Shown: piece after piece, positions 5,770 to 19,930 of the stretch
Position numbering within the stretch: position 1 is the stretch's first letter
Layout: every line of letters starts with the position of its first letter
Source: a virus
Virus record (IMG/VR): IMGVR_UViG_3300006108_000600
Coordinates: 1 to 24,560 of that record
Direction: 5' to 3' (one strand)
DNA: 24,560 nucleotides
Notes under the pieces: model-generated
Seen by the model: the letters and a program-made list of their open reading frames with translations, nothing else
Databases searched by the model: none
Told to the model about the DNA's origin: nothing
Made by a program: the position numbers and the translations under genes

Positions 5770-6567
5770 TTATATCTCCGCTATTAGAACAGGATCAACT
5801 AAACTTCTTTCATTAGGATATCCAAATGGATTACACACAACTCTTGTTTCTCCGATTTTATAATCAAAAGCATTATGTGTATGACCATGGATCCATAGTT
5901 TTACATTATCAGTCATCATATGTTCCAGATCCGAAGCATACAATGTATTCAGTTCTTTATCATCGGCAAACCTCTCATGGATACTTTTCCATGAAGGAGC
6001 ATGGTGAGTAATAACCACACAAGGTATATCCTTCACTTCTGAACCCGCAAGGATATCTTCTAGATATATTCTTGATAGTTTATGCTCTATGTAAGCATCC
6101 TGCGGAGAAAACTTACGATAGTTGCCTTTAGCATCACAATACTTGATGACACTAAAATCATTCATGGCAAACCTTAGTCTGTTGGTTGTCACAGGATTTT
6201 GTATATCAGTATTAGTCCAAAGAGTAGAACCAACAAACTTTATACCATCAATAGTCACACTCTCGTTATCCAGAAAGTGTAGGTTATTATACTCGGCAAG
6301 AGCATCACGAAGAATATCGGCACTCTTGTTGAATGTGCCTTTATAGTGTTCGTGGTTGCCCATGATATAGATAACATCCTTGAAGTTGGCACAGACCTCA
6401 TCAAAGAACATATAATAACCAAGATTGTTTATATTGCGTTCTTTATTCTTGAAGGCCTTGGCAAGGCAAATGTCACCAGCCAGCACCAGCACATCCGCAC
6501 CAGCATTAGGAATATGGACGTTATGTCCAAACTCTAGATGAATATCCGAACAGACTTGTATCTTCAT
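5770..6567 (-). CDS. Calcineurin-like metallophosphoesterase, 265 aa
   Basis: All metal-binding motifs of the PF00149 family are present in order: D8-x-H10 (CSDIHLEF), GD32 (LAGDICLA), GNHEH at 70-74, VITHHAPS, and HGHTHNAF near the C-terminus. These build a two-metal centre that hydrolyses phosphomono- or diesters. This short form is common in phages and mobile DNA; its substrate is not known. ATG 6567 follows GGAG at 7 bases; the longer open frame to 6603 lies in the upstream gene and is not used. It is distinct from the second metallophosphoesterase at 10710-11453. Confidence 0.93.
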   Translation of the reverse strand: MKIQVCSDIHLEFGHNVHIPNAGADVLVLAGDICLAKAFKNKERNINNLGYYMFFDEVCANFKDVIYIMGNHEHYKGTFNKSADILRDALAEYNNLHFLDNESVTIDGIKFVGSTLWTNTDIQNPVTTNRLRFAMNDFSVIKYCDAKGNYRKFSPQDAYIEHKLSRIYLEDILAGSEVKDIPCVVITHHAPSWKSIHERFADDKELNTLYASDLEHMMTDNVKLWIHGHTHNAFDYKIGETRVVCNPFGYPNERSLVDPVLIAEI

Positions 6568-6568
6568 C

Positions 6569-6853
6569 TTAGAACTCCAAATTTCCAAATTTATAATCTT
6601 CAAATCCTTTTTCTGGTTCGGTCAATATATCTTCCCGAATAAGTTTTTCACAACGCTTTTTCCAATCATCACGTTGCCATTGTGCCTTATCGTATGATAG
6701 TTCATGATAGTCATTGGCGATAAACCTAACCATTTCCTCGTATTTACGGAGGCGAGTGATTTCATTGGTTGCGTCATCAACAGCAGTCTCAACATTAATA
6801 TTACCAGGATAGCATCTGTCCCAAGATTTTATCCGCTCAACAATATCAGTCAT
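6569..6853 (-). CDS. Hypothetical protein, 94 aa
   Basis: Soluble helical protein, starting MTDIVERIKSWDRC, with a stretch NEITRLRKYEEMVRF typical of short coiled-coil phage proteins. The start resembles those of the paralogues at 7490-8366 (MTD/MTE, then a helix, then an EI/RL heptad run), so it may be a distant member of the same family. It overlaps the upstream gene by eight bases. GGAG lies six bases from the ATG. Function unknown. Confidence 0.75.
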   Translation of the reverse strand: MTDIVERIKSWDRCYPGNINVETAVDDATNEITRLRKYEEMVRFIANDYHELSYDKAQWQRDDWKKRCEKLIREDILTEPEKGFEDYKFGNLEF

Positions 6854-9460: not shown

Positions 9461-9715
9461 TCAATCCATATTACCGAAGTCATTATTGAGGCGAGAAGAA
9501 GGAACGGAACCGCCGCCACCTCCACCACTATTTCCTGGGCTATAGGAAGGAGCAAATGACGGTGCTGATGCCGTAGGTAAATGGTGTGGACTTACATTGA
9601 AGGCAGTAGAACCTTCACTCCATCCAGGATTTTCCCAAGAGAAGGCCGGTATCTTATGTACCGGTTCTCCACTTAGGGAGTGAAACTGCGCAAGTATAAT
9701 CAAAGTTTTCATCAT
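9461..9715 (-). CDS. Gly/Ser/Pro-rich small protein, 84 aa
   Basis: ATG 9715 (followed by a second ATG) overlaps the stop of the glycosyltransferase as ATGATG; GGAG lies 8 bases upstream. The first part is ordinary (LIILAQFHSLSGEPVHKIPAFSWENPGW). The second is low complexity, with PSFAPSYSPGNS and a run of six glycines, ending NNDFGNMD. No membrane segment strong enough to call. It is the last gene of the glycan/lipid operon. Unknown function; the low-complexity tail may be disordered. Confidence 0.6.
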   Translation of the reverse strand: MMKTLIILAQFHSLSGEPVHKIPAFSWENPGWSEGSTAFNVSPHHLPTASAPSFAPSYSPGNSGGGGGGSVPSSRLNNDFGNMD

Positions 9716-10713
9716 ATCAAGTTCTCCAAAAATTGGTCTGTAGCGGATTCCCAAGAAAAGGTCTTGGCTCTTGCTACAGCATCCTTTCTATCTAACATAT
9801 TGGCACCGATAATAGCCTCTTCCAAGTCATCATCTTTTAATATACCAGACCTACCATCCTCAATGATATATTCATTTACATCATTACGGAATGCCGCAAC
9901 AGGAAGACCTGATGCCATACCTTCCAACACAACCAATCCAAATGTATCGGTCAAAGAAGGCCAGGCAAATACATCATGCTTACGCAACTCATTGGCAATC
10001 TCATACTTATTTTTTTTACCAAGAAAGTTCACATTAGGATACTTTGCTTTGTATTCTTCCAGTTGTGGTCCATCACCAATCAGTGTCTTGCGTATCCAAC
10101 CATTCTTGATAGATAAAAATGCCTCAAGGTTCTTTTCAGCCGATATACGACCAACATAGACTGCCTTGATAGGACCATTCTTTTCTTTTTGTTCATCATC
10201 AAAAGATGGAGAGAATAACGAGGTATCAACACCTCTAGACCAAAGTTTTAGGTTCTTCAGACCATTTGACTTACAATACTCCATCATTGATGGAGTGGTT
10301 ACGAGAACAGAGCTAGAAGGTCTATGAAACCAACGAAAATATCTCCAAGTAACTTTTGATGGTATACGAGCGTGTATCTCAGCGTAGTCCGGATACCGAG
10401 TATGGTAGGATGTTGTAAAAGGTTTTTTATATTTTTTACAAGAGTATCTAGCAGCAATGCCTATAGCTCCTTCGGTTGATATATGAATATGTTCAGCATT
10501 GCGAACTTCGTCATCAGCTATCCCGGCAGGGAGTAATGGCATATAGATTCCAGTGGATGGTTGTAATGGTACGGTAAGTTTATATAAACCAGGATGAACT
10601 ATTGTAACTTTATGTCCTCTTTTTTCCAGTTCTGCTTTGGTTGCTGATAGAGTTGATACCACTCCATTTATTTGAGGTTCCCAGGCGTCGGTAAAGATTG
10701 TAATATTCTTCAT
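9712..10713 (-). CDS. GT4 glycosyltransferase, Agt/Pgt-like (diacylglycerol glycosylation suspected)
   Basis: 333-aa GT-B enzyme. The N-terminal domain has TDAWEPQINGVVST (acceptor side), IHISTEGAIG and TTSYHTRYPDY. The C-terminal donor domain has YVGRISAEKN, GDGPQLEEY and the E-x7-E-type segment DTFGLVVLEGMASGLPVAA. This is the GT4 group that includes bacterial mannosyl-/glucosyltransferases for lipids. The FRWFHRPSSS and SRGVDTSLFSP signatures are those I associate with the alphaproteobacterial glycosyltransferase that glycosylates diacylglycerol under phosphate limitation (Agt), encoded next to PlcP. The gene overlaps the PlcP-like gene by four bases, reproducing that pairing. The acceptor is inferred; a glycan acceptor as in the neighbouring operon is the alternative. 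It is unrelated to the DNA alpha-glucosyltransferase of T4. Confidence 0.85.
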   Translation of the reverse strand: MKNITIFTDAWEPQINGVVSTLSATKAELEKRGHKVTIVHPGLYKLTVPLQPSTGIYMPLLPAGIADDEVRNAEHIHISTEGAIGIAARYSCKKYKKPFTTSYHTRYPDYAEIHARIPSKVTWRYFRWFHRPSSSVLVTTPSMMEYCKSNGLKNLKLWSRGVDTSLFSPSFDDEQKEKNGPIKAVYVGRISAEKNLEAFLSIKNGWIRKTLIGDGPQLEEYKAKYPNVNFLGKKNKYEIANELRKHDVFAWPSLTDTFGLVVLEGMASGLPVAAFRNDVNEYIIEDGRSGILKDDDLEEAIIGANMLDRKDAVARAKTFSWESATDQFLENLI

Positions 10714-11453
10714 AGAAATACCTTCATCTCAAATGTTCCGTCATAGTGTTCAACAATAGCGGTACAGGACTCTACCCAATCACCGCAGTTTATGTATTGG
10801 ACACCATCTATAGACTTAATACAACAAGAATGGATATGACCGCAAACAATGCCATCAGCATGTCTTTTAGAAGCATAGTCAGCAACAACATTTTCATAAT
10901 CTCCTATAAAGTTTACGGCCTCTTTTACGTGGTGCTTCGCCCACGCGGACAAGGAGAACCCAGGTATTCCTAAAGTTCTTGTGATCCATTGAATCTTACC
11001 ATTCAGACCAATCATAGCATCATACAACACTCCGCCGATATAGGCAAGCCACTTGGCGTTCATGGTAACAATATCAAACTGGTCTCCATGAATAACAATA
11101 TATTTCTTTCCGTCCACTCCGTAATGTATGGCCTCATCCACAAGTTGGATGTTTCCGAATACAATACCAGAATGTTCTCTAAGGAACTCATCGTGGTTTC
11201 CTGTGACGTAGGTAACTGTGACTGACTTTTTGGATTGTTTGAGGAAGAACTGAATAATGTTGTTATGGGCCTGTGGCCAATAAATCTTTTTACGCATCAT
11301 CCAACCGTCAATAATATCACCTACAAGGTAATAATGGTCTGCTTCGGTTGATTTTAGGAATTCTAATAGAAGTTCTGCGTTTGAGTATTTGGTTCCAAGA
11401 TGCACATCGGATATAAAAATAGAACGGTACTTTGCTCGGTCTTTATGTTTCAA
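10710..11453 (-). CDS. plcP: Metallophosphoesterase of the PlcP/LpxH-like type (phospholipase C suspected)
   Basis: 247 aa with a full two-metal centre: D16-x-H18 (FISDVHLG), GD46 (LVGDIIDGW), GNH87D88E, IHGD at 121-124 and CGHIH at 204-208. The features YWPQAHNN, SLSAWAKHHVKEAV and the ending NCGDWVESCTAIVEH are those of the alphaproteobacterial proteins often labelled UDP-2,3-diacylglucosamine diphosphatase, a group that includes S. meliloti PlcP. PlcP splits phosphatidylcholine/PE/PG into diacylglycerol and a phospho-headgroup during phosphate starvation. Start: TTG 11453 after GAGAGG; no upstream ATG fits. It stands directly before an Agt-like glycosyltransferase that would use the diacylglycerol. 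A true LpxH role in lipid A synthesis is the alternative. Confidence 0.82.
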   Translation of the reverse strand: MKHKDRAKYRSIFISDVHLGTKYSNAELLLEFLKSTEADHYYLVGDIIDGWMMRKKIYWPQAHNNIIQFFLKQSKKSVTVTYVTGNHDEFLREHSGIVFGNIQLVDEAIHYGVDGKKYIVIHGDQFDIVTMNAKWLAYIGGVLYDAMIGLNGKIQWITRTLGIPGFSLSAWAKHHVKEAVNFIGDYENVVADYASKRHADGIVCGHIHSCCIKSIDGVQYINCGDWVESCTAIVEHYDGTFEMKVFL

Positions 11454-11480
11454 AACAACCTCTCTGGTTAGGAGACCTAT

Positions 11481-11488
11481 TATTTATT
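11481..11488 (-). promoter_or_regulatory. Candidate late promoter (AATAAATA)
   Basis: AATAAATA on the minus strand in the 46-base gap between galE and the PlcP-like gene, 28 bases upstream of its TTG start. It differs by one base from the T4 late -10 element. It could give the two lipid genes transcription separate from the glycan operon. Weak evidence by itself. Confidence 0.25.
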
Positions 11489-11499
11489 GCTTTGCAACA

Positions 11500-12450
11500 T
11501 TAACCGTTTTGTGACGGTTTCATACTTTCCATAATATCATCTAAAGTATATTGTGGATAGTAACCTAATAGTTCTTTTAGTTTAGTGTTATCAGCAACAA
11601 GATAGGGAACGTCACCATCTCGGCGTTCTTTATACTCTATTCTCATTTCACCATTATGTAATACGTCGTTGGCCTTATCAACAACCTCTTTCACAGAATA
11701 ACCTTTACCAGAACCTATATTGAGGACGATGTTGGTATTATCCAAGAAGTTTATGTATTCATAGGCCGCGATATGTGTTCGGCAAATATCAATCACATGA
11801 ACATAATCACGAATACAAGTTCCATCTACCGTAGGATAATCATCACCATATATTGTGGCAGTTTTGTTTCTTGCTAATAGTGGAATAAGATGTGTCTCTG
11901 GATCATGTTCTTCATAGAGGTTGGCCTCTACGTTTCTACCACAGGCATTAAAATACCTTAGGCGTGCTACATTCATATCTTTAACACCTTCAAGGATAGT
12001 TTCGCACATAGCCTTAGACTTACCATAAACAGAAACAGGATTCATCGGTTGTGATTCCAACAAATGACCAAACATTTGACTTTTGGATTCACCATACACC
12101 GCAGCCGTAGATGAAAAGATAAAGTTTCTTATCTTACATCTTTTTGCCATATCAATGGTGTTTAATGTGGCTCCGACGTTGTTTCTATAATATGACCAAG
12201 GGTCTCTTTCCCCTTCTTCCACTGAGATATATGCTGCGAAATGGAAGAGGCAATCGACTTCTCCTCTTGAGAAATAAGCGGTATTGAGAGAAAGATCAAC
12301 ACAGCTAAAAGCATCATAAAGATGCCGCAAATGCGGTCTAACATTTTTATCTACTCCTATGATAAAGCAATCCGGATAGGTTCGCTTTAGTTCATAGCAC
12401 ATATGACTGCCAATGTAACCGTTACAGCCTGTGACTACAAATTTCTTCAT
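11500..12450 (-). CDS. galE: UDP-glucose 4-epimerase (GalE-like)
   Basis: 316-aa extended short-chain dehydrogenase/reductase that interconverts UDP-glucose and UDP-galactose. NAD-binding GCNGYIGS at 8-15; LFHFAAYISVEEG; catalytic serine region FSSTAAVYG; catalytic Y-x-x-x-K as YGKSK; RYFNACG and the family signature GTCIRDYVHV are all visible. Length is slightly below the usual ~330. It overlaps the upstream methyltransferase by four bases and is the last gene of the glycan block. Epimerisation of other UDP-hexoses cannot be excluded. Confidence 0.95.
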   Translation of the reverse strand: MKKFVVTGCNGYIGSHMCYELKRTYPDCFIIGVDKNVRPHLRHLYDAFSCVDLSLNTAYFSRGEVDCLFHFAAYISVEEGERDPWSYYRNNVGATLNTIDMAKRCKIRNFIFSSTAAVYGESKSQMFGHLLESQPMNPVSVYGKSKAMCETILEGVKDMNVARLRYFNACGRNVEANLYEEHDPETHLIPLLARNKTATIYGDDYPTVDGTCIRDYVHVIDICRTHIAAYEYINFLDNTNIVLNIGSGKGYSVKEVVDKANDVLHNGEMRIEYKERRDGDVPYLVADNTKLKELLGYYPQYTLDDIMESMKPSQNG

Positions 12451-13019
12451 TTGATTGCTACCAATTTTAGAACCGCACCTCTTGCTGGTTCTGGGTTACG
12501 TTCATCATCTTCACGGTAAATGCCCGTGAATCCTGCTTCTTGTAAAAGATTGACTAATGACTTCTCACAGAAACCATTGATATGTCCCATGCCAGGAATT
12601 TTAAACTCTTCTGGATGACGCCATCCACCAAATAGATAGTCCATGGCATTCTCCCAAGGATCCTCGTGTGTATTCAACCAAGAAACGTTAGCCTTTTCTT
12701 TCCAGTCATCATAGACAATACGTTCCATAATCCACATAACATCTGGACAGGTGATCTCAAACTTACCACCTGGTTTTAAAATACGGTGGATTTCTTTTAG
12801 AACTTGTGGTACCGCAAAGTGTATCAAATGCTCAACAACATCACCAAGGTAAATCTTATCAGCATAATCGCTATCATATGGATAAGGAAAGTGATGAAGG
12901 TCATGTACCTTTGTTGTACCTGCCCACTGGTGTATATCCATACGGTCCGTTGCATCTGGTTTTGGATGTGGGCCAGCACCAATGTCAATAATAACAGATT
13001 GTTCTATAGTAAGTTTCAT
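12447..13019 (-). CDS. Class I SAM-dependent methyltransferase (Methyltransf_11 type)
   Basis: 190-aa Rossmann methyltransferase: SAM-binding motif I IDIGAGPHPKP near the N-terminus, an acidic MDIHQW after strand 2, GDVVEHL (motif following strand 4), and the LKEIHRILKPGGKFEITCPD post-motif typical of small-molecule methyltransferases. The substrate is unknown; its place among sugar genes suggests methylation of a sugar or glycan hydroxyl. AGGA lies six bases before ATG 13019. Four-base overlap with galE. Confidence 0.9.
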   Translation of the reverse strand: MKLTIEQSVIIDIGAGPHPKPDATDRMDIHQWAGTTKVHDLHHFPYPYDSDYADKIYLGDVVEHLIHFAVPQVLKEIHRILKPGGKFEITCPDVMWIMERIVYDDWKEKANVSWLNTHEDPWENAMDYLFGGWRHPEEFKIPGMGHINGFCEKSLVNLLQEAGFTGIYREDDERNPEPARGAVLKLVAIK

Positions 13020-13028
13020 AATATATCC

Positions 13029-13634
13029 TTATGCAAAGTTTCCAGAAACGCTTATTCTATAATCATCACTAGTATAAAATGGATTTACAAAATGTCTTAA
13101 TTTAGAGGGAAAAAATACTAACATGTTTTCCCAACTTTTATCTGCCGGTATAGGATATCTTTGAATATCTCCAAGAACATCTGTGTATTGAAAACAAAAA
13201 TTAGCGGTAATATTTTCATGTTGTAATATATGTGGAAATGTTTTATATTCATCTTCAATTGAATATGGAATTTTCAACCACATAGCAAAACTAAACACAC
13301 CTGAATGGTGGTGAACTGGATTAAATTCGTGTTTTTTTTGATAGTTAACCCAAACATTTTCTAAAAAATATCCTTTCTCTTTACATTCAAAATGAGAAAA
13401 TTTATCTTTATACTCATAAACTAAAGGTAGTAATAAACTTTCCATATATGTTTTACATTCAAATAAATAATACTCATTATTGAGATGTCCAGCTAGGCCT
13501 TGATTGAATCTAACCGCATCATCAAAATTTTTTTGCAATTGTTCAACTTCATACACAATAGGTTTTACATCATCATCACTTAGAATGATTTTGAGAAAAC
13601 CTAAATTGCTGAAGTTTACTTCATTTATTTCCAT
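13029..13634 (-). CDS. 2OG-Fe(II) oxygenase superfamily protein
   Basis: 201 aa. The C-terminal half has the jelly-roll pattern of the phage 2OG-Fe(II) oxygenase family (TIGR02466-like): PVHHHSGVFSFAMWLKIPY holds the proximal metal ligands (H108-H110 region). The distal ligand is H181 in PSKLRHFVNPF, with a 2OG-binding arginine at R193 in DDYRISVSGN. Such enzymes hydroxylate or otherwise oxidise a substrate using 2-oxoglutarate and O2. They are frequent auxiliary genes in T4-like phages. Because it lies inside a glycan operon, the substrate may be a sugar or lipid moiety. The DNA here is more AT-rich than that of its neighbours, hinting at separate acquisition. Starts at the TAATG junction with the SDR gene. 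Confidence 0.82.
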   Translation of the reverse strand: MEINEVNFSNLGFLKIILSDDDVKPIVYEVEQLQKNFDDAVRFNQGLAGHLNNEYYLFECKTYMESLLLPLVYEYKDKFSHFECKEKGYFLENVWVNYQKKHEFNPVHHHSGVFSFAMWLKIPYSIEDEYKTFPHILQHENITANFCFQYTDVLGDIQRYPIPADKSWENMLVFFPSKLRHFVNPFYTSDDYRISVSGNFA

Positions 13635-14608
13635 TATTTTAAAGCATCCCTAATACAAAGACGAAGACTATCATCAACTTTCATCTTTGCTTCCCAACCA
13701 AGTATTTCTTTTGCTTTATCAACATTAGGAACACGATAACGAACATCGTTCTTATATGCTGGTTTATGGTCAAAGGTCATAGCATAATCATATTGACATC
13801 CAAACTCAGTTTCAGCAATGGCACGGATTTTTTTAGCAAGTTCTTTCATTGTGATTGGTTCATGATTGCCAAGGTTGAATGCCTGATTATCAGATTTATT
13901 AGAAAATGAGTATGTTGCAATCGCCTCTGCTACTTCATCAATCCATGTGAAGCAACGGATCTGTTGTCCATCACCAAGAAGAGGAATATTGTTTGAACGC
14001 TTGATAATAATCTCATGCATAAAGTCGGCAAATACATGAGCAGTACCTTGTTGACCTTCCGATTTCTCATATGGAGTTAAAATATTAAATGGACGCCAAA
14101 TTGTATATGATACACCATACTGTTTCTCAAAAGCAATAGACATTCGTTCGCCGACAAACTTTGATAGTCCATACTCTGTGTAAGGAGCAACCACCGTATC
14201 AATATCATCCTCTTTTACAGTACCTTGGCAGTTCTCATACACCATAGACGATGATGTATAAACAACTTTGGAGACGCCGTGGTCTACTGCGGCCTTGAGG
14301 ACATTATTATGTAGTGCTAAATCTTCACCTAGAATATCGGCACAATACTTATTGAAACCACCGACGCCGTATATTCTGGCTGCCATTTGGAATATAACAT
14401 CTGGTTGGACAGATTTCACAAGAGCATCAACAGAAGGACGGTCCGTAAGGTCTACCTTGCGAAACTCATATCCTTCACCGGCAATACCAAGGCGTTCACC
14501 GTATCTAACCAAGTTATCAACACCATAGACAATATGCTTATCTCTCAAAAGTTTTGGAACAACTGCTTGACCTAATGATCCTTCACTACCACACACTAAT
14601 ACTTTCAT
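13634..14608 (-). CDS. NAD-dependent sugar epimerase/dehydratase (extended SDR)
   Basis: 324 aa. Rossmann motif GSEGSLGQ at 8-15, a VDNLVRYGE turn, QMAARIYGVGG, YTSSSMVYEN with the catalytic Ser/Thr, and Y-x-x-x-K as YGLSK. Then RPFNILTPYE, the FTWIDEVAEAI region and a C-terminal AKEILGWEAK helix typical of nucleotide-sugar 4,6-dehydratases, decarboxylases and epimerases. The exact reaction cannot be read from motifs; UDP-glucuronate decarboxylase, GDP-mannose 3,5-epimerase or a 4-epimerase are candidates. It overlaps the upstream dehydrogenase gene by four bases, so it could act on the uronic acid made there. Confidence 0.9.
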   Translation of the reverse strand: MKVLVCGSEGSLGQAVVPKLLRDKHIVYGVDNLVRYGERLGIAGEGYEFRKVDLTDRPSVDALVKSVQPDVIFQMAARIYGVGGFNKYCADILGEDLALHNNVLKAAVDHGVSKVVYTSSSMVYENCQGTVKEDDIDTVVAPYTEYGLSKFVGERMSIAFEKQYGVSYTIWRPFNILTPYEKSEGQQGTAHVFADFMHEIIIKRSNNIPLLGDGQQIRCFTWIDEVAEAIATYSFSNKSDNQAFNLGNHEPITMKELAKKIRAIAETEFGCQYDYAMTFDHKPAYKNDVRYRVPNVDKAKEILGWEAKMKVDDSLRLCIRDALK

Positions 14609-15840
14609 TTAACATCTCCAACTTTATAAATGCCTGTCTTACTTAGTTTACTTTCTGGATACATTTTCCAGAGGTCGGCAACAATACAATCTTTTCTAAA
14701 CCAATCTAGAGGCCATACGGATTCCATACCTGTATGTGGAGTCATTACAATAATAGCATCAGCCTCTTGAGGTATCATACATGTATTTCCCTCAACAAAA
14801 GGATCCCACATATCAGATTCCACGCCGTGCTTCTTACATACCTTACGCATCTTGTATGAAAGACTGTTGCGAGTATCATCACAGTCTTTCTTGAATGTAG
14901 CACCTAGAATAAGGATCTTCTCGATGTTCGGGTTGATATCCTTAATGCGATTAAACACATAATCTGGCATACCTTCATTAATAAGAAAGCTAGTGTTAAT
15001 AAGATCACCAAAGGGAATGTCACTAAGCAAGAAACGACCGTCCTTGAAGAGGCAAGGGCCTCCAACATTAGGGCCTGGATGAGGCACATCCATTCTAGGA
15101 TAATCATAGTTACATGCGTCAATAACTTTGTCGATGTTGATACCATGTTTCTCTCCAATCATCCACATTTCATTAGCAAAGGCAAATGTGACATAACGAT
15201 ACATGTTAGTCATCAACTTACCAAGTTCCGCTTCTTTTGGTGAAAGGTGAAAAACTTTATTCTTAATGAAACTATTAAAGAATAATGCGGCCTGTAAGTA
15301 AGACTCCTCACTAAATGCACCAACAATCTGTGGAAGTTTTGTTGTCTCAATAATAGAACGGCCTTGTACCACTCGCTCAGGACAGAATACAAGATGATAG
15401 TCTTCACCTTCTACCCAACCATGGTTCTTTTCAATATGCTTACGGAGAACCTCTGTAGTTCCTGGTGACACTGTAGAACGAAGGACAATCAACTGTCCTT
15501 TTTTCATGCGAGGAATAAGAGTATCATCAACAAAACTAAAAAGATCATCAAGGCGGGCATTACCTTCTCCATCTACCGGTGTGCCAATCATAATAGCCAC
15601 TACATCAGAGTCCTTGATGAAATCAAAATCGGTGGTAAAAAGTATTCTCTCTTTCTTTAGATTGACTTTCAGTATATCTTCACCACCTTCTTCTTCATAA
15701 GGTGTGATACCAGCATTTAGTTTATCAACGGCATCTTGGTTAATATCAATACCATATACATTATGTCCTGCTTCGGCCACAACACAAGCAAAGGGAAACC
15801 CTACGTGCCCGCCGGCACCGATAACTGATACTTTCATCAT
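14605..15840 (-). CDS. Nucleotide-sugar 6-dehydrogenase (UDP-ManNAc/UDP-Glc dehydrogenase family)
   Basis: 411 aa of the UDPG/MGDP dehydrogenase family, oxidising C6 of a nucleotide sugar to a uronic acid in two NAD+ steps. N-terminal VIGAGGHVGFPFA nucleotide-binding motif, IGTPVDGEGN, STVSPGTTEVLR, and the catalytic cysteine in NVGGPCLFKDGR; C-terminal LGATFKKDCDDTRNS. CPERVVQGRS and KLPQIVGAF are closer to UDP-N-acetylmannosamine/GlcNAc dehydrogenases (WecC, WbpA) than to UDP-glucose dehydrogenase, which favours an amino-sugar substrate. Starts with ATGATG overlapping the upstream gene by four bases; GGAG is upstream. Confidence 0.92.
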   Translation of the reverse strand: MMKVSVIGAGGHVGFPFACVVAEAGHNVYGIDINQDAVDKLNAGITPYEEEGGEDILKVNLKKERILFTTDFDFIKDSDVVAIMIGTPVDGEGNARLDDLFSFVDDTLIPRMKKGQLIVLRSTVSPGTTEVLRKHIEKNHGWVEGEDYHLVFCPERVVQGRSIIETTKLPQIVGAFSEESYLQAALFFNSFIKNKVFHLSPKEAELGKLMTNMYRYVTFAFANEMWMIGEKHGINIDKVIDACNYDYPRMDVPHPGPNVGGPCLFKDGRFLLSDIPFGDLINTSFLINEGMPDYVFNRIKDINPNIEKILILGATFKKDCDDTRNSLSYKMRKVCKKHGVESDMWDPFVEGNTCMIPQEADAIIVMTPHTGMESVWPLDWFRKDCIVADLWKMYPESKLSKTGIYKVGDVK

Positions 15841-16787
15841 TTTGTCTCCAATAAAACATCCTCTATGTCATTACAAGTATCTTGTATGGTGTGGTTTGCC
15901 ATGACATAGTTATAGGCATTATCAATCTTTTCTTCATCTCTCTTATGATTACGGAGAATTTCCATCAACTCCTTCTCATCTTTATAAGTGGTGCCATGGT
16001 AGCACATATCTTTGGCACCGGCAATATCTCTGGCGTACCATGGTGTCTTATTCATCATAGCCTCTAAAAGGACAAGACCAAATCCCTCTTCATAGGAGTT
16101 CATGATATAAGCATCTGCACTGGAAATCTCAAATAAAACATCCGTCTTAGGTTTACCAAAGAAACATTTGACCACATCATTCTCAGCAGGCATCAAATGT
16201 TCTTCACCATATCCATATAGATGGAGTTCAGCATTAGGAATCTTTGCTTTAGTAAATGCTTGTGCGAGAGGACCCATTGCTTTATGTGGCCAAAAACCAC
16301 CGGCAGAAACAAAGATAGTTTTTTTCTTATCAAACTCATGTCTAAAGTATGCCACTTGTTCAATACCGTGACGAATACGGCGACCTTTCTCCAATACATT
16401 ATGTTTTCTGAGGTGATCGATATCCATGCTTGTAGAATATCCAAGGAATCGGTGTTCTCTTAGGCCATGCAAGCATATTGAACTTTCAGATGGTTTAACA
16501 ATCAGATAAAGGACTGGTGATTGTATGTTATCAGCATTTACATGAACTATATTCTGTGAGATGCAATCACCACCATGGACAACTATGAGGTCCCATTTTT
16601 GATCACCTAGCATTGCTTGATAATCATCAGAAACTTTTATACCGTTATATTCACCTTTGTGTTCATGTGCTAATACGATAACATCATGGCGCCGACGAAG
16701 CATCTCTTCGGCCATATTCTGCACATAATACTCACTACCGCCAGGATAAGGTGCATAGCGGTGAACCACAAACAATAGTCTCATCAT
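15837..16787 (-). CDS. GT4 family glycosyltransferase
   Basis: 316-aa GT-B fold. The N-terminal HRYAPYPGGSEYYVQNMAEEM is a standard GT4 acceptor-domain opening; the middle has IFVSAGGFWPHKA, and the donor site has YEEGFGLVLLEAMMNKTPWYA with the E-x7-E motif. Donor sugar unknown. The start may be the ATG at 16787 or the directly following ATG at 16784; the latter has better spacing from GGAGG. It overlaps the fucosyltransferase gene by four bases. Confidence 0.9.
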   Translation of the reverse strand: MMRLLFVVHRYAPYPGGSEYYVQNMAEEMLRRRHDVIVLAHEHKGEYNGIKVSDDYQAMLGDQKWDLIVVHGGDCISQNIVHVNADNIQSPVLYLIVKPSESSICLHGLREHRFLGYSTSMDIDHLRKHNVLEKGRRIRHGIEQVAYFRHEFDKKKTIFVSAGGFWPHKAMGPLAQAFTKAKIPNAELHLYGYGEEHLMPAENDVVKCFFGKPKTDVLFEISSADAYIMNSYEEGFGLVLLEAMMNKTPWYARDIAGAKDMCYHGTTYKDEKELMEILRNHKRDEEKIDNAYNYVMANHTIQDTCNDIEDVLLETK

Positions 16788-17671
16788 GCCTCCATAACAA
16801 ACTTATCCCACCATTCATAAAGGTTGTGTAAGTCCGTAAACTCATTAGGAATATCATTCTTAAATACTGGTCTCTCTATTATATCTAGGTACTCTTGTTT
16901 ACCAGCAGGAGAGTCCAAATGTTTTACATAATTCTTCACACCATCTAATGTTTGGAAATCATGAACATTAATAAATGCTTTGGTATTGAAGTCACGACCA
17001 ACAGTTTCCGATCCCCAATAGATAGGCATCGTTTTGGTTTGAAAAGCATTAAGGATTTTTTCTGTGACATATCCAGGATGTGATCCATTCTCAAAACAAA
17101 TGTTGAAACGGTAGTTATCAAGGAACTCTAGTTTATACTTTAATTTGTCTCTTGGTAGAATTGCGTTCATATTGTTTAGATGTGGACCGGCCGAATGTAC
17201 CTTTTTATATCCACTCATCATCTCGAACATAGCGTTTCGCATATGCTGTCTAGGATTCGATACAACAAAAGAACAGAAATCTCTGTTATCATAATCCTTT
17301 TCATAATCACGGACTACATTCTTGATCTGTAGAAAATCATCCGTCCATCCTTCTTGAATGGCACCATGCATATCAATAATATACAATGGTAAACGATAAT
17401 GCCTAGGACTATTCTCATGATCAAAGGTCATAGCAGCAAAGCAATCATTATATGGAGGCCTTGCGTTTTCACCTGTATAGAATATCTTCTTTACTTTGGT
17501 CTTATCAAACCTTTCATTAGAACGACCAAACTCTCCTTCACCATATATCAAATACTCCGGGTTCACATCATCACGGATAACATGATAGTGTTTGTTAAAA
17601 ACATCCATAAAGAAGTTTACTGCCGTTGTAAAGGTATCGGCAAAACCAATGCGAAGAGGTTTACGTCCCAT
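16784..17671 (-). CDS. GT10 fucosyltransferase (alpha-1,3/1,4 type)
   Basis: 295 aa. The C-terminal donor domain has the GT10 signature: FNICFENGSHPGYVTEKI, followed by a KTMPIYWGSETVGRDFN segment and AFINVHDF. This is the GDP-fucose binding part seen in Helicobacter alpha-1,3-fucosyltransferases and Lewis enzymes. The family transfers L-fucose to GlcNAc or similar acceptors. The N-terminal half is more divergent, with VSNPRQHMRNAMFE aligning to the family's xSNC..R pattern. No GDP-fucose synthesis genes are in the window, so the donor would come from the host or from genes elsewhere. It joins the upstream methyltransferase by TAATG. Confidence 0.9.
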   Translation of the reverse strand: MGRKPLRIGFADTFTTAVNFFMDVFNKHYHVIRDDVNPEYLIYGEGEFGRSNERFDKTKVKKIFYTGENARPPYNDCFAAMTFDHENSPRHYRLPLYIIDMHGAIQEGWTDDFLQIKNVVRDYEKDYDNRDFCSFVVSNPRQHMRNAMFEMMSGYKKVHSAGPHLNNMNAILPRDKLKYKLEFLDNYRFNICFENGSHPGYVTEKILNAFQTKTMPIYWGSETVGRDFNTKAFINVHDFQTLDGVKNYVKHLDSPAGKQEYLDIIERPVFKNDIPNEFTDLHNLYEWWDKFVMEA

Positions 17672-18267
17672 TACTTGTACCAGAAAAAGGCTGAATTGGT
17701 TGAAAGATTGATAGGTGCAGTAATCTTATAATCATTACGAAAATCTGTTACTGCACGTTTAACTGCCTCAATAGAAGAATAATCATGGCCAGAAAACAAA
17801 CCACCTTTCTTGAGCAAAGGATAGTATGACTCACAGTCAGCATATGTGGCCTCATAAGAGTGATCACCATCAACAAAGATGAAATCAAATTCTTCTTTAT
17901 TGGTGATAGTCTTAATCTTAGATGCAGCATTAGAGGATGTTTCTCTAATCATTTGAACTCGTTCATCATATTCTTTTAGGTTCTCTTGTGCAATCATCAT
18001 AAACTTATCAATAACATTTTGATTGATTTCACCGTTCCAATCCTCATATGCTTTATAAGGATCAATGGTGTATAACATCAGAATGTTTGGGCATTTATCT
18101 AATAGAAATGATGTTGACTCGGCACGGCAAGTACCAATCTCAACACCAACAATATTTTCTCCAAGGCGTTTGATATAAGGTGCTAAACCTTTTACCGATA
18201 CCCAATCATAAGGCCACTTATCACCTAGTTCTTTAATAGTTCTAAAATCATCATCCGAAAGTGCCAT
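17671..18267 (-). CDS. Class I SAM-dependent methyltransferase (Methyltransf_24 type)
   Basis: 198 aa. VGVEIGTCRAESTSFLL is motif I of this subgroup, LYTIDPYKAY carries the acidic ribose-binding residue, and DFIFVDGDHSYEATYADC with LLKKGGLFSGHDY is the family hallmark (metal/active-site region of Methyltransf_24). These proteins often sit in LPS and glycan gene clusters and are thought to O-methylate sugars. ATG 18267 has GGAG at 7 bases. Two bases lie between it and the glycosyltransferase-like gene upstream. Confidence 0.9.
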   Translation of the reverse strand: MALSDDDFRTIKELGDKWPYDWVSVKGLAPYIKRLGENIVGVEIGTCRAESTSFLLDKCPNILMLYTIDPYKAYEDWNGEINQNVIDKFMMIAQENLKEYDERVQMIRETSSNAASKIKTITNKEEFDFIFVDGDHSYEATYADCESYYPLLKKGGLFSGHDYSSIEAVKRAVTDFRNDYKITAPINLSTNSAFFWYK

Positions 18268-18269
18268 TA

Positions 18270-19169
18270 TTAATCTCCAAATTTATTAGTAAATAGTTCT
18301 TTCCATTCAGGTACTCGGTCCCACTGGTGAATTATTGATACTTTATTTCCGTTTGCATGAACTTCATTGTTGATTACATTATACTCTATACCACGCACGA
18401 ATGGCAAGTGCATATTTGGATTTCTTCTATATTCTTCGCCAATACCACCTGACCCAGATTGTATAGCAGGAAGTGATGTACCAGCGTGAACAACCCAACC
18501 ATCGATAGGATTTGTAAATTTAGTTGTTAATGAATATACTTCCGTTTGTAAAAGGACATTGAGCGCCGCTTGATCTGGACCTCCTCCGCCCGGAACGTGT
18601 GGATTTAGGCCACGACAAACCAACCAAACATTTAATGCAAGATCACGCATAGCATTTCTATTTCCAGAAATAACACCGGCACAATAGATTTCATTATCGC
18701 CATATGTTTCTAAGAAATATTGACCAAATGATTGTTGTAAATTATTCTTACCCCATGGTTCATCTTTATATTTTAAATTTTCGGAACCAACAAGAATATT
18801 TCCAAAAAAGTTTTTACTTAACCATTCAGAAGGATTATTCTGAAAAACCACATCTCTAACATCAGTCATAATAACATTATTTACTGGTTCACTCAATACA
18901 TTTAAGAGACTGTATAAATGAAAAAAGCGATCAACCATAACAGATCCGCGAGAATTGTCATGTAAAAATCCTTTTTGCTCATCGTATTGATTACATCCAA
19001 CCAACATAAAATCTTCATCAGTAAGTTTCTTTACTGTTTCTGCATCCATATTATATACTATAAGTGCTTTATGTCCGGAAAAACCGGACTTTTTAATTGA
19101 ATTGGCCCAGTATTTGATTTTATCCCAATTATAATTATCAACCACACCTACAATTAAATCTTTAGCCAT
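18270..19169 (-). CDS. Glycosyltransferase-like protein (GT-A type suspected)
   Basis: 299 aa. It begins with a nucleotide-binding-like strand (LIVGVVDNYNWDKIKYW). It has a VIMTDVRDVVFQNNPSEW segment, where D-x-R-D after four hydrophobic residues fits the metal-binding DxD region of GT-A glycosyltransferases. ENIYCAGVISG-like (EIYCAGVISGNRN) and GGGGPDQAALNVLL motifs also occur in GT8-like and related enzymes. Family assignment is therefore by motif, not firm. The start overlaps the GT2 stop by 16 bases; GAAGGGAAG is upstream. Part of the same operon. Confidence 0.75.
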   Translation of the reverse strand: MAKDLIVGVVDNYNWDKIKYWANSIKKSGFSGHKALIVYNMDAETVKKLTDEDFMLVGCNQYDEQKGFLHDNSRGSVMVDRFFHLYSLLNVLSEPVNNVIMTDVRDVVFQNNPSEWLSKNFFGNILVGSENLKYKDEPWGKNNLQQSFGQYFLETYGDNEIYCAGVISGNRNAMRDLALNVWLVCRGLNPHVPGGGGPDQAALNVLLQTEVYSLTTKFTNPIDGWVVHAGTSLPAIQSGSGGIGEEYRRNPNMHLPFVRGIEYNVINNEVHANGNKVSIIHQWDRVPEWKELFTNKFGD

Positions 19170-19930
19170 GGAAACTTCCCTTCATAGTATTGTTCATTTA
19201 TCTTATTACCTGCATCAAAAAATTCTTTATTTACCGAGTTGGGGTTACCATCCAGACGATAGCAAAGGGTGTGTTTTCCACTAGTATCGTATTTGCTACG
19301 ATCTTTCACCGCATAGAGATACTGGCGGTCTCCACCCCAACCGGCGTGCCAGTAGTGACATGTCTTTTGTAGAAACTCTTTCTTCCAACAGAATGATGAT
19401 GTGTCTATTAGGAACTGATCTCCATAAGGAGAATTGCGTGAGGCGAATATTGGCCACTTACCTAAACTTTCACATTTATCATCACATAGATATTCTTTAT
19501 CTGGACTATATATCTGTCTTAGAGAATAGGCAAAATCTAGGCCGTTTTGTTCAATAGTATTTACCAATGTTTCAACATGATCTGGTTGATACCAGTTGTC
19601 TTCATCAAGGAAGAGAATGTAATCGGAGTTTAGTAGATGTGGAATACCAGCATAGATACGATGACCATAAAAAGATTGGTCACCAACTTTACCTGTGTTC
19701 TCTGGTAGAATAAGGACTTTTACTTTATCTTTTGGTGGAAGTCCAACCTGTTCAAATACACCATTGGCATATTCTTTACCATCAACTACAATAAGATGTT
19801 TGATGTGTTTATAGGTTTGCTTTTCAACACTATCTAAAGCATCTTGTAGTTTTGGAGAACCTATTGTAGGCGTAACAACCGTTACGGTCTTAGGACCCTT
19901 AGGGGCATCTGTAATCACAAGTTTCATCAT
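19154..19930 (-). CDS. GT2 family glycosyltransferase
   Basis: 258 aa. Classical GT-A opening TVVTPTIGSPKLQDALDSV with KQTYKHIKHLIVVDG, the DxD motif in ILFLDEDNWYQPDHVE, and a GGDRQYLYAV region where the catalytic base is usually found. Soluble, without membrane helices, so it probably acts in the cytoplasm on a nucleotide-sugar donor. It is the first gene of the glycan operon; ATG 19930 is only 12 bases downstream of the U-run of the hsp20 terminator, so it must rely on read-through or on a promoter that I cannot see. AGGA is upstream. Confidence 0.9.
   Translation of the reverse strand: MMKLVITDAPKGPKTVTVVTPTIGSPKLQDALDSVEKQTYKHIKHLIVVDGKEYANGVFEQVGLPPKDKVKVLILPENTGKVGDQSFYGHRIYAGIPHLLNSDYILFLDEDNWYQPDHVETLVNTIEQNGLDFAYSLRQIYSPDKEYLCDDKCESLGKWPIFASRNSPYGDQFLIDTSSFCWKKEFLQKTCHYWHAGWGGDRQYLYAVKDRSKYDTSGKHTLCYRLDGNPNSVNKEFFDAGNKINEQYYEGKFPWLKI

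Follow-up and report, generated by a model that had tools for sequence, protein, structure and literature searches.

The closest described counterparts of the locus considered here are the plcP-agt operons of bacteria (P. aeruginosa PA3219-PA3218, Phaeobacter MED193, SAR11 and the rhizobia), in which the same two protein families are encoded in the order plcP then agt; in cellular genomes, 47 of 60 short loci contain both genes. Among phages, the cyanophage genes pstS and phoA have been proposed to ease phosphate limitation. Cyanophage phosphate-acquisition genes act on phosphate uptake and are linked to PhoB, and to our knowledge the known phage phosphate genes act on uptake or signalling. 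A PlcP-like protein is also encoded by the Pelagibacter phage Mosig EXVC030M, where the gene (annotated as a UDP-2,3-diacylglucosamine hydrolase) is divergent from an adjacent gene annotated as a putative phosphate ABC transporter (L002:13906–15741). What is new here is that the plcP-agt pair is a conserved phage module.

The pair was studied on a 24,560-base contig from an IMG/VR virus record, the whole of which is referred to as the window. The contig is that of a T4-like phage. A fragment of a T4-like gp43 polymerase, 43–45% identical to the polymerases of Kyanoviridae and of Pelagibacter phage HTVC008M, lies at one end, and genes for a clamp loader (53–56% identical to cyanophage clamp loaders), RegA, dUTPase and Hsp20 lie at the opposite end; because these genes flank the pair on its two sides, the contig is viral. 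An identical contig, L004, is also present in the collection. A second metallophosphoesterase-like gene is found at 5770–6603 on the minus strand, with homologs in L013, L046 and L047.

The first gene of the pair, plcP (10710–11453, minus strand), starts with TTG and encodes a calcineurin-like phosphoesterase of the PlcP type, a predicted phospholipase C of 247 residues. A Shine-Dalgarno-like AGAGAGG (11459–11465, minus strand), read directly from the sequence, lies 5 nt ahead of the TTG. The sequence-only reading that preceded this work had described an intact phosphoesterase with PlcP-type signatures, and the open reading frame is indeed intact, its product matching Metallophos and Metallophos_2 above the Pfam cut-offs and retaining the metal motifs D16/H18, D46, G85-N86-H87-D88, H122 and H206/H208. 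These calcineurin-like ligands (DxH, GD, GNHD, H and GHxH) are essentially invariant in 65 distinct viral PlcP sequences. The window PlcP is 55% identical to PlcP of P. aeruginosa PA7, which exceeds the published 46–47% identity between PA3219 and the PlcP proteins of S. meliloti and MED193 (PMC8528852). The PA7 gene would be the ortholog of PA3219, judging by its identity and its neighbour. Among the matches listed, cellular PlcP proteins are mostly from Pseudomonas, at 52–55% identity, the closest named ones also being from Pseudomonas, and alphaproteobacterial PlcP proteins reach up to 56%.

The second gene, agt (9712–10713, minus strand), has an ATG start and encodes a 333-residue GT4 protein of the Agt (diacylglycerol glycosyltransferase) clade. 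Here too the earlier description, an intact GT4 with Agt-type signatures, agrees with the reading frame, with Glyco_transf_4 and Glycos_transf_1 matches above the Pfam cut-offs, and with the motifs GRISAEKN and WPSLTDTFG, which correspond to the family patterns GRVAXEKN and FPSXTDTFG. The glycosyltransferase is 39% identical to Agt1 of PA7, the gene adjoining plcP, and 43–45% identical to the best other cellular Agt; for Agt1 and the MED193 Agt, 41% has been published (PMC8528852). In a comparison that took in GT4 paralogs from two genomes, its scores are 212–270 bits against Agt, 145 bits against the next GT4, which may perhaps be Agt2, and at most 52 bits against the others. A tree that includes these paralogs joins it to Agt, apart from the other GT4 proteins. 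In GTcp of SAR11, mutation of the His104-Asp256 dyad, of donor-site residues or of diacylglycerol-site residues kills the enzyme (PMC8231724). The window protein keeps H104, D256, R160, R189, K194, T257-F258-G259, E264 and W321, as mapped to GTcp by motif and numbering rather than by alignment, and the mapped positions hardly vary among 51 distinct viral sequences. Its predicted structure is good (pLDDT 91), with general GT4 folds as the best structural matches, and PHROGs places both this protein and PlcP only loosely. The phylogenetic placement called for in the sequence-only reading thus falls on the Agt side by tree, bit scores, key residues and operon structure, and sequence comparison supports assigning the window GT4 to the Agt clade, apart from other GT4 proteins. 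As GTcp accepts UDP-glucose, UDP-galactose and UDP-glucuronate whereas a Pseudomonas homolog is glucose-specific (PMC8231724), the phage enzyme may use any of these donors.

Within the window, agt lies directly downstream of plcP on the same strand. Four bases (10710–10713, minus strand) are shared by the stop of plcP and the start of agt, as had been claimed earlier and as the coordinates bear out; the overlap is common to 28 related contigs and suggests translational coupling. The two genes are adjacent and on one strand in 49 of the 50 IMG/VR contigs of the window clade that have both, although these contigs are not all independent because many are near-identical. Overall, tens of IMG/VR contigs contain the pair, far more than chance would give, and more distant viral groups carry it too, with glycosyltransferases that are only 34–42% identical (loci L112–L121 underlie no claim made here, and L116–L120 may be cellular). 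Several phages, as well as Mosig, have PlcP without Agt, which counts against a reading as a paired pathway. So does an in-frame TAG close to codon 30 in the glycosyltransferase gene of two loci (L018:2845–3831 and L019:1638–2624), which could reflect decay, recoding or sequencing error and weighs against a functional pair. In L005 (8745–9435) a gap of about 690 bases separates the PlcP and glycosyltransferase genes, unlike in other close relatives.

Upstream of plcP, the sequence-only reading had called for a search for a PHO box. None was found above background ahead of the phage plcP, where the best score is 9 of 14, whereas some cellular plcP genes reach 12–13 of 14; by this measure the phage pair is not classed as a Pho regulon member. 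Instead, an ATAAATA element resembling a T4-type late promoter (11481–11487, minus strand) lies 34 nt ahead of the plcP start; the motif occurs only four times in the window. Of 24 distinct loci in the window clade, 16 have the element between −31 and −35, against 1.3% at random, and one more has it at −23. Since the genes upstream differ between loci, it travels with the pair. The gp23 genes of five related phages served as a positive control: ATAAATA lies ahead of gp23 in three; in L294 and L295 it is absent from the 80 bases upstream of gp23, and the assignment is for this reason not certain. We consider that the element ahead of plcP is probably a T4-type late promoter. Just before it, at 11502–11519, is a TGTCATAAATCGGTTAATG-like block, which forms a small stem in the window (AACCGT..ACGGTT) and is kept upstream in L006, L007, L009, L013, L037 and L041, even where the upstream gene differs.

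Upstream of the pair lies a nucleotide-sugar and glycosyltransferase cluster (11500–19930, minus strand) with galE, UGDH-like, FucT, methyltransferase and 2OG oxygenase genes. This cluster is also present in L005, L013 and L041, and its role may perhaps be the synthesis of a surface glycan or the glycosylation of a phage product. It had been proposed that GalE could supply the sugar donor. The galE gene is real (TIGR01179 above cut-off), but the link is not general: galE and the cluster adjoin the pair only in the window, the identical L004 and those three relatives. In most relatives the pair is found elsewhere, often beside hsp20 and gp43, and so moves independently of its neighbours. Because pair and cluster are usually separate, the neighbourhood is best regarded as incidental, and a view of the pair as part of the glycan cluster was rejected.

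With its homology, clade membership, key residues, operon structure, conservation and promoter-like motif, the pair is likely to be a phage-borne plcP-agt lipid-remodelling operon that encodes a late-expressed phospholipid-to-glycolipid pathway. The activities, sugar donor, timing and benefit that we describe are predictions from sequence. PlcP would strip the phosphate-bearing head group from host phospholipids (PE and PG), leaving diacylglycerol, and Agt would then move a sugar from a UDP-sugar onto the diacylglycerol to give a glycosyl-diacylglycerol that is retained in the membrane. UDP-glucose is the most likely donor, with UDP-galactose or UDP-glucuronate possible. Both genes would be read from one mRNA with coupled translation, and transcription would probably start from the T4-type late promoter, which would put the pair under the control of the phage rather than of host PhoB. 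During infection, glycolipid could replace phospholipid and free phosphate for phage DNA, and the composition of the membrane would change without loss of the bilayer.

An alternative would place both genes in the neighbouring glycan cluster, the phosphoesterase as a lipid A enzyme of the LpxH type and the GT4 as a glycan or LPS enzyme. Homologs are publicly annotated as UDP-2,3-diacylglucosamine hydrolase, the galE/UGDH/fucosyltransferase cluster is directly upstream, and LpxH shares with the window PlcP a calcineurin-like fold, a weak profile match and the closest PDB fold. This last resemblance (TM about 0.57) is not decisive for function, and the PlcP model itself is only fair (pLDDT 80, low across residues 128–182). 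However, the window protein has GNHDE where LpxH has GNRD, and it scores 40.9 and 45.6 bits against LpxH models with cut-offs of 190.35 and 134. Against TIGR01854, the true LpxH proteins of five Pseudomonas genomes score 341–374 bits and the second, PlcP-type gene of these genomes scores 41–44, compared with 41 for the window protein. A tree rooted with an LpxH outgroup nests it among cellular PlcP proteins, in a clade separate and at a large distance from LpxH. Profile scores, key residues, tree and operon structure therefore resolve the earlier question of placement on the PlcP side, and a PlcP assignment apart from LpxH is supported by sequence; the lipid A identity was rejected on scores, motif and tree. 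Given also that the glycosyltransferase joins Agt and that most relatives have the pair without an adjoining glycan cluster, we view this alternative as highly unlikely. We give hardly any credence to the pair being host DNA that ended up in the contig, or functionless genes acquired in passing. A cellular origin is itself likely, and viral PlcP sequences occupy more than one place in the PlcP tree, as such an explanation would have it. Yet phage genes flank the pair on both sides, gp23, the T4 capsid gene, is present on five long contigs (92–230 kb) that bear the pair, and in this diverse viral clade both genes are under purifying selection (dN/dS about 0.02–0.27).

As to the purpose of the operon, the sequence-only reading held that the pair remodels membrane lipid for phosphate; the identities of PlcP and Agt on which this relied are supported, but the purpose of supplying phosphate for DNA is only plausible. 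The phosphate motive has no independent support, since Pho-box scores stay at background level and none of eight related contigs encodes a PstS-type protein. It is quite possible, if somewhat doubtful, that the enzymes are as we propose and that their aim is a late change of the membrane or surface (for example, superinfection exclusion or altered envelope properties before lysis). The late-promoter-like motif and the lack of both phosphate-linked features agree with such an aim, and lipid changes have been proposed to influence phage binding (PMC9804370). On the other hand, phages with PlcP alone would free phosphate but could make glycolipid only in hosts that supply an Agt themselves, and the Mosig PlcP gene adjoins a gene annotated as a phosphate ABC transporter; these PlcP-only phages fit phosphate salvage somewhat better. 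For the lipid-remodelling operon, phosphate salvage remains a plausible benefit. A broader proposal, which we hold tentatively as close to evenly balanced, is that T4-like phages run a late phospholipid-to-glycolipid conversion independent of host phosphate signalling, with the membrane serving as a phosphate store that is rebuilt by the virus.

The PlcP-Agt pathway is known in bacteria; what is new is a phage-borne, conserved and apparently late-expressed version of it. The sequence-only reading knew of no such pair in a phage, and we likewise found no description in the literature searched, with bioRxiv and most subscription journals outside its scope. The pair suggests that, during infection, the membrane of the host cell is rebuilt by the virus. 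If true, host membrane lipid would be a new metabolic target for phages, and whether viruses alter the lipids of their bacterial hosts becomes testable. Some of the phage lpxH genes reported by virome surveys (such as PMC9611531 and PMC10653327) may be plcP. The pair would be hidden by filters that discard contigs carrying glycosyltransferases and epimerases (PMC11360552).

The phage pair shares key residues and similar levels of identity with the cellular PlcP-Agt operon but differs in its four-base gene overlap, its T4-like phage carriers and the late-promoter-like ATAAATA element that replaces the Pho box. Mosig EXVC030M is also T4-like and encodes a PlcP that is 45% identical to that of the window, but has no Agt beside it. 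Unlike cyanophage pstS and phoA, the phage pair has no Pho box, and its predicted target is membrane lipid.
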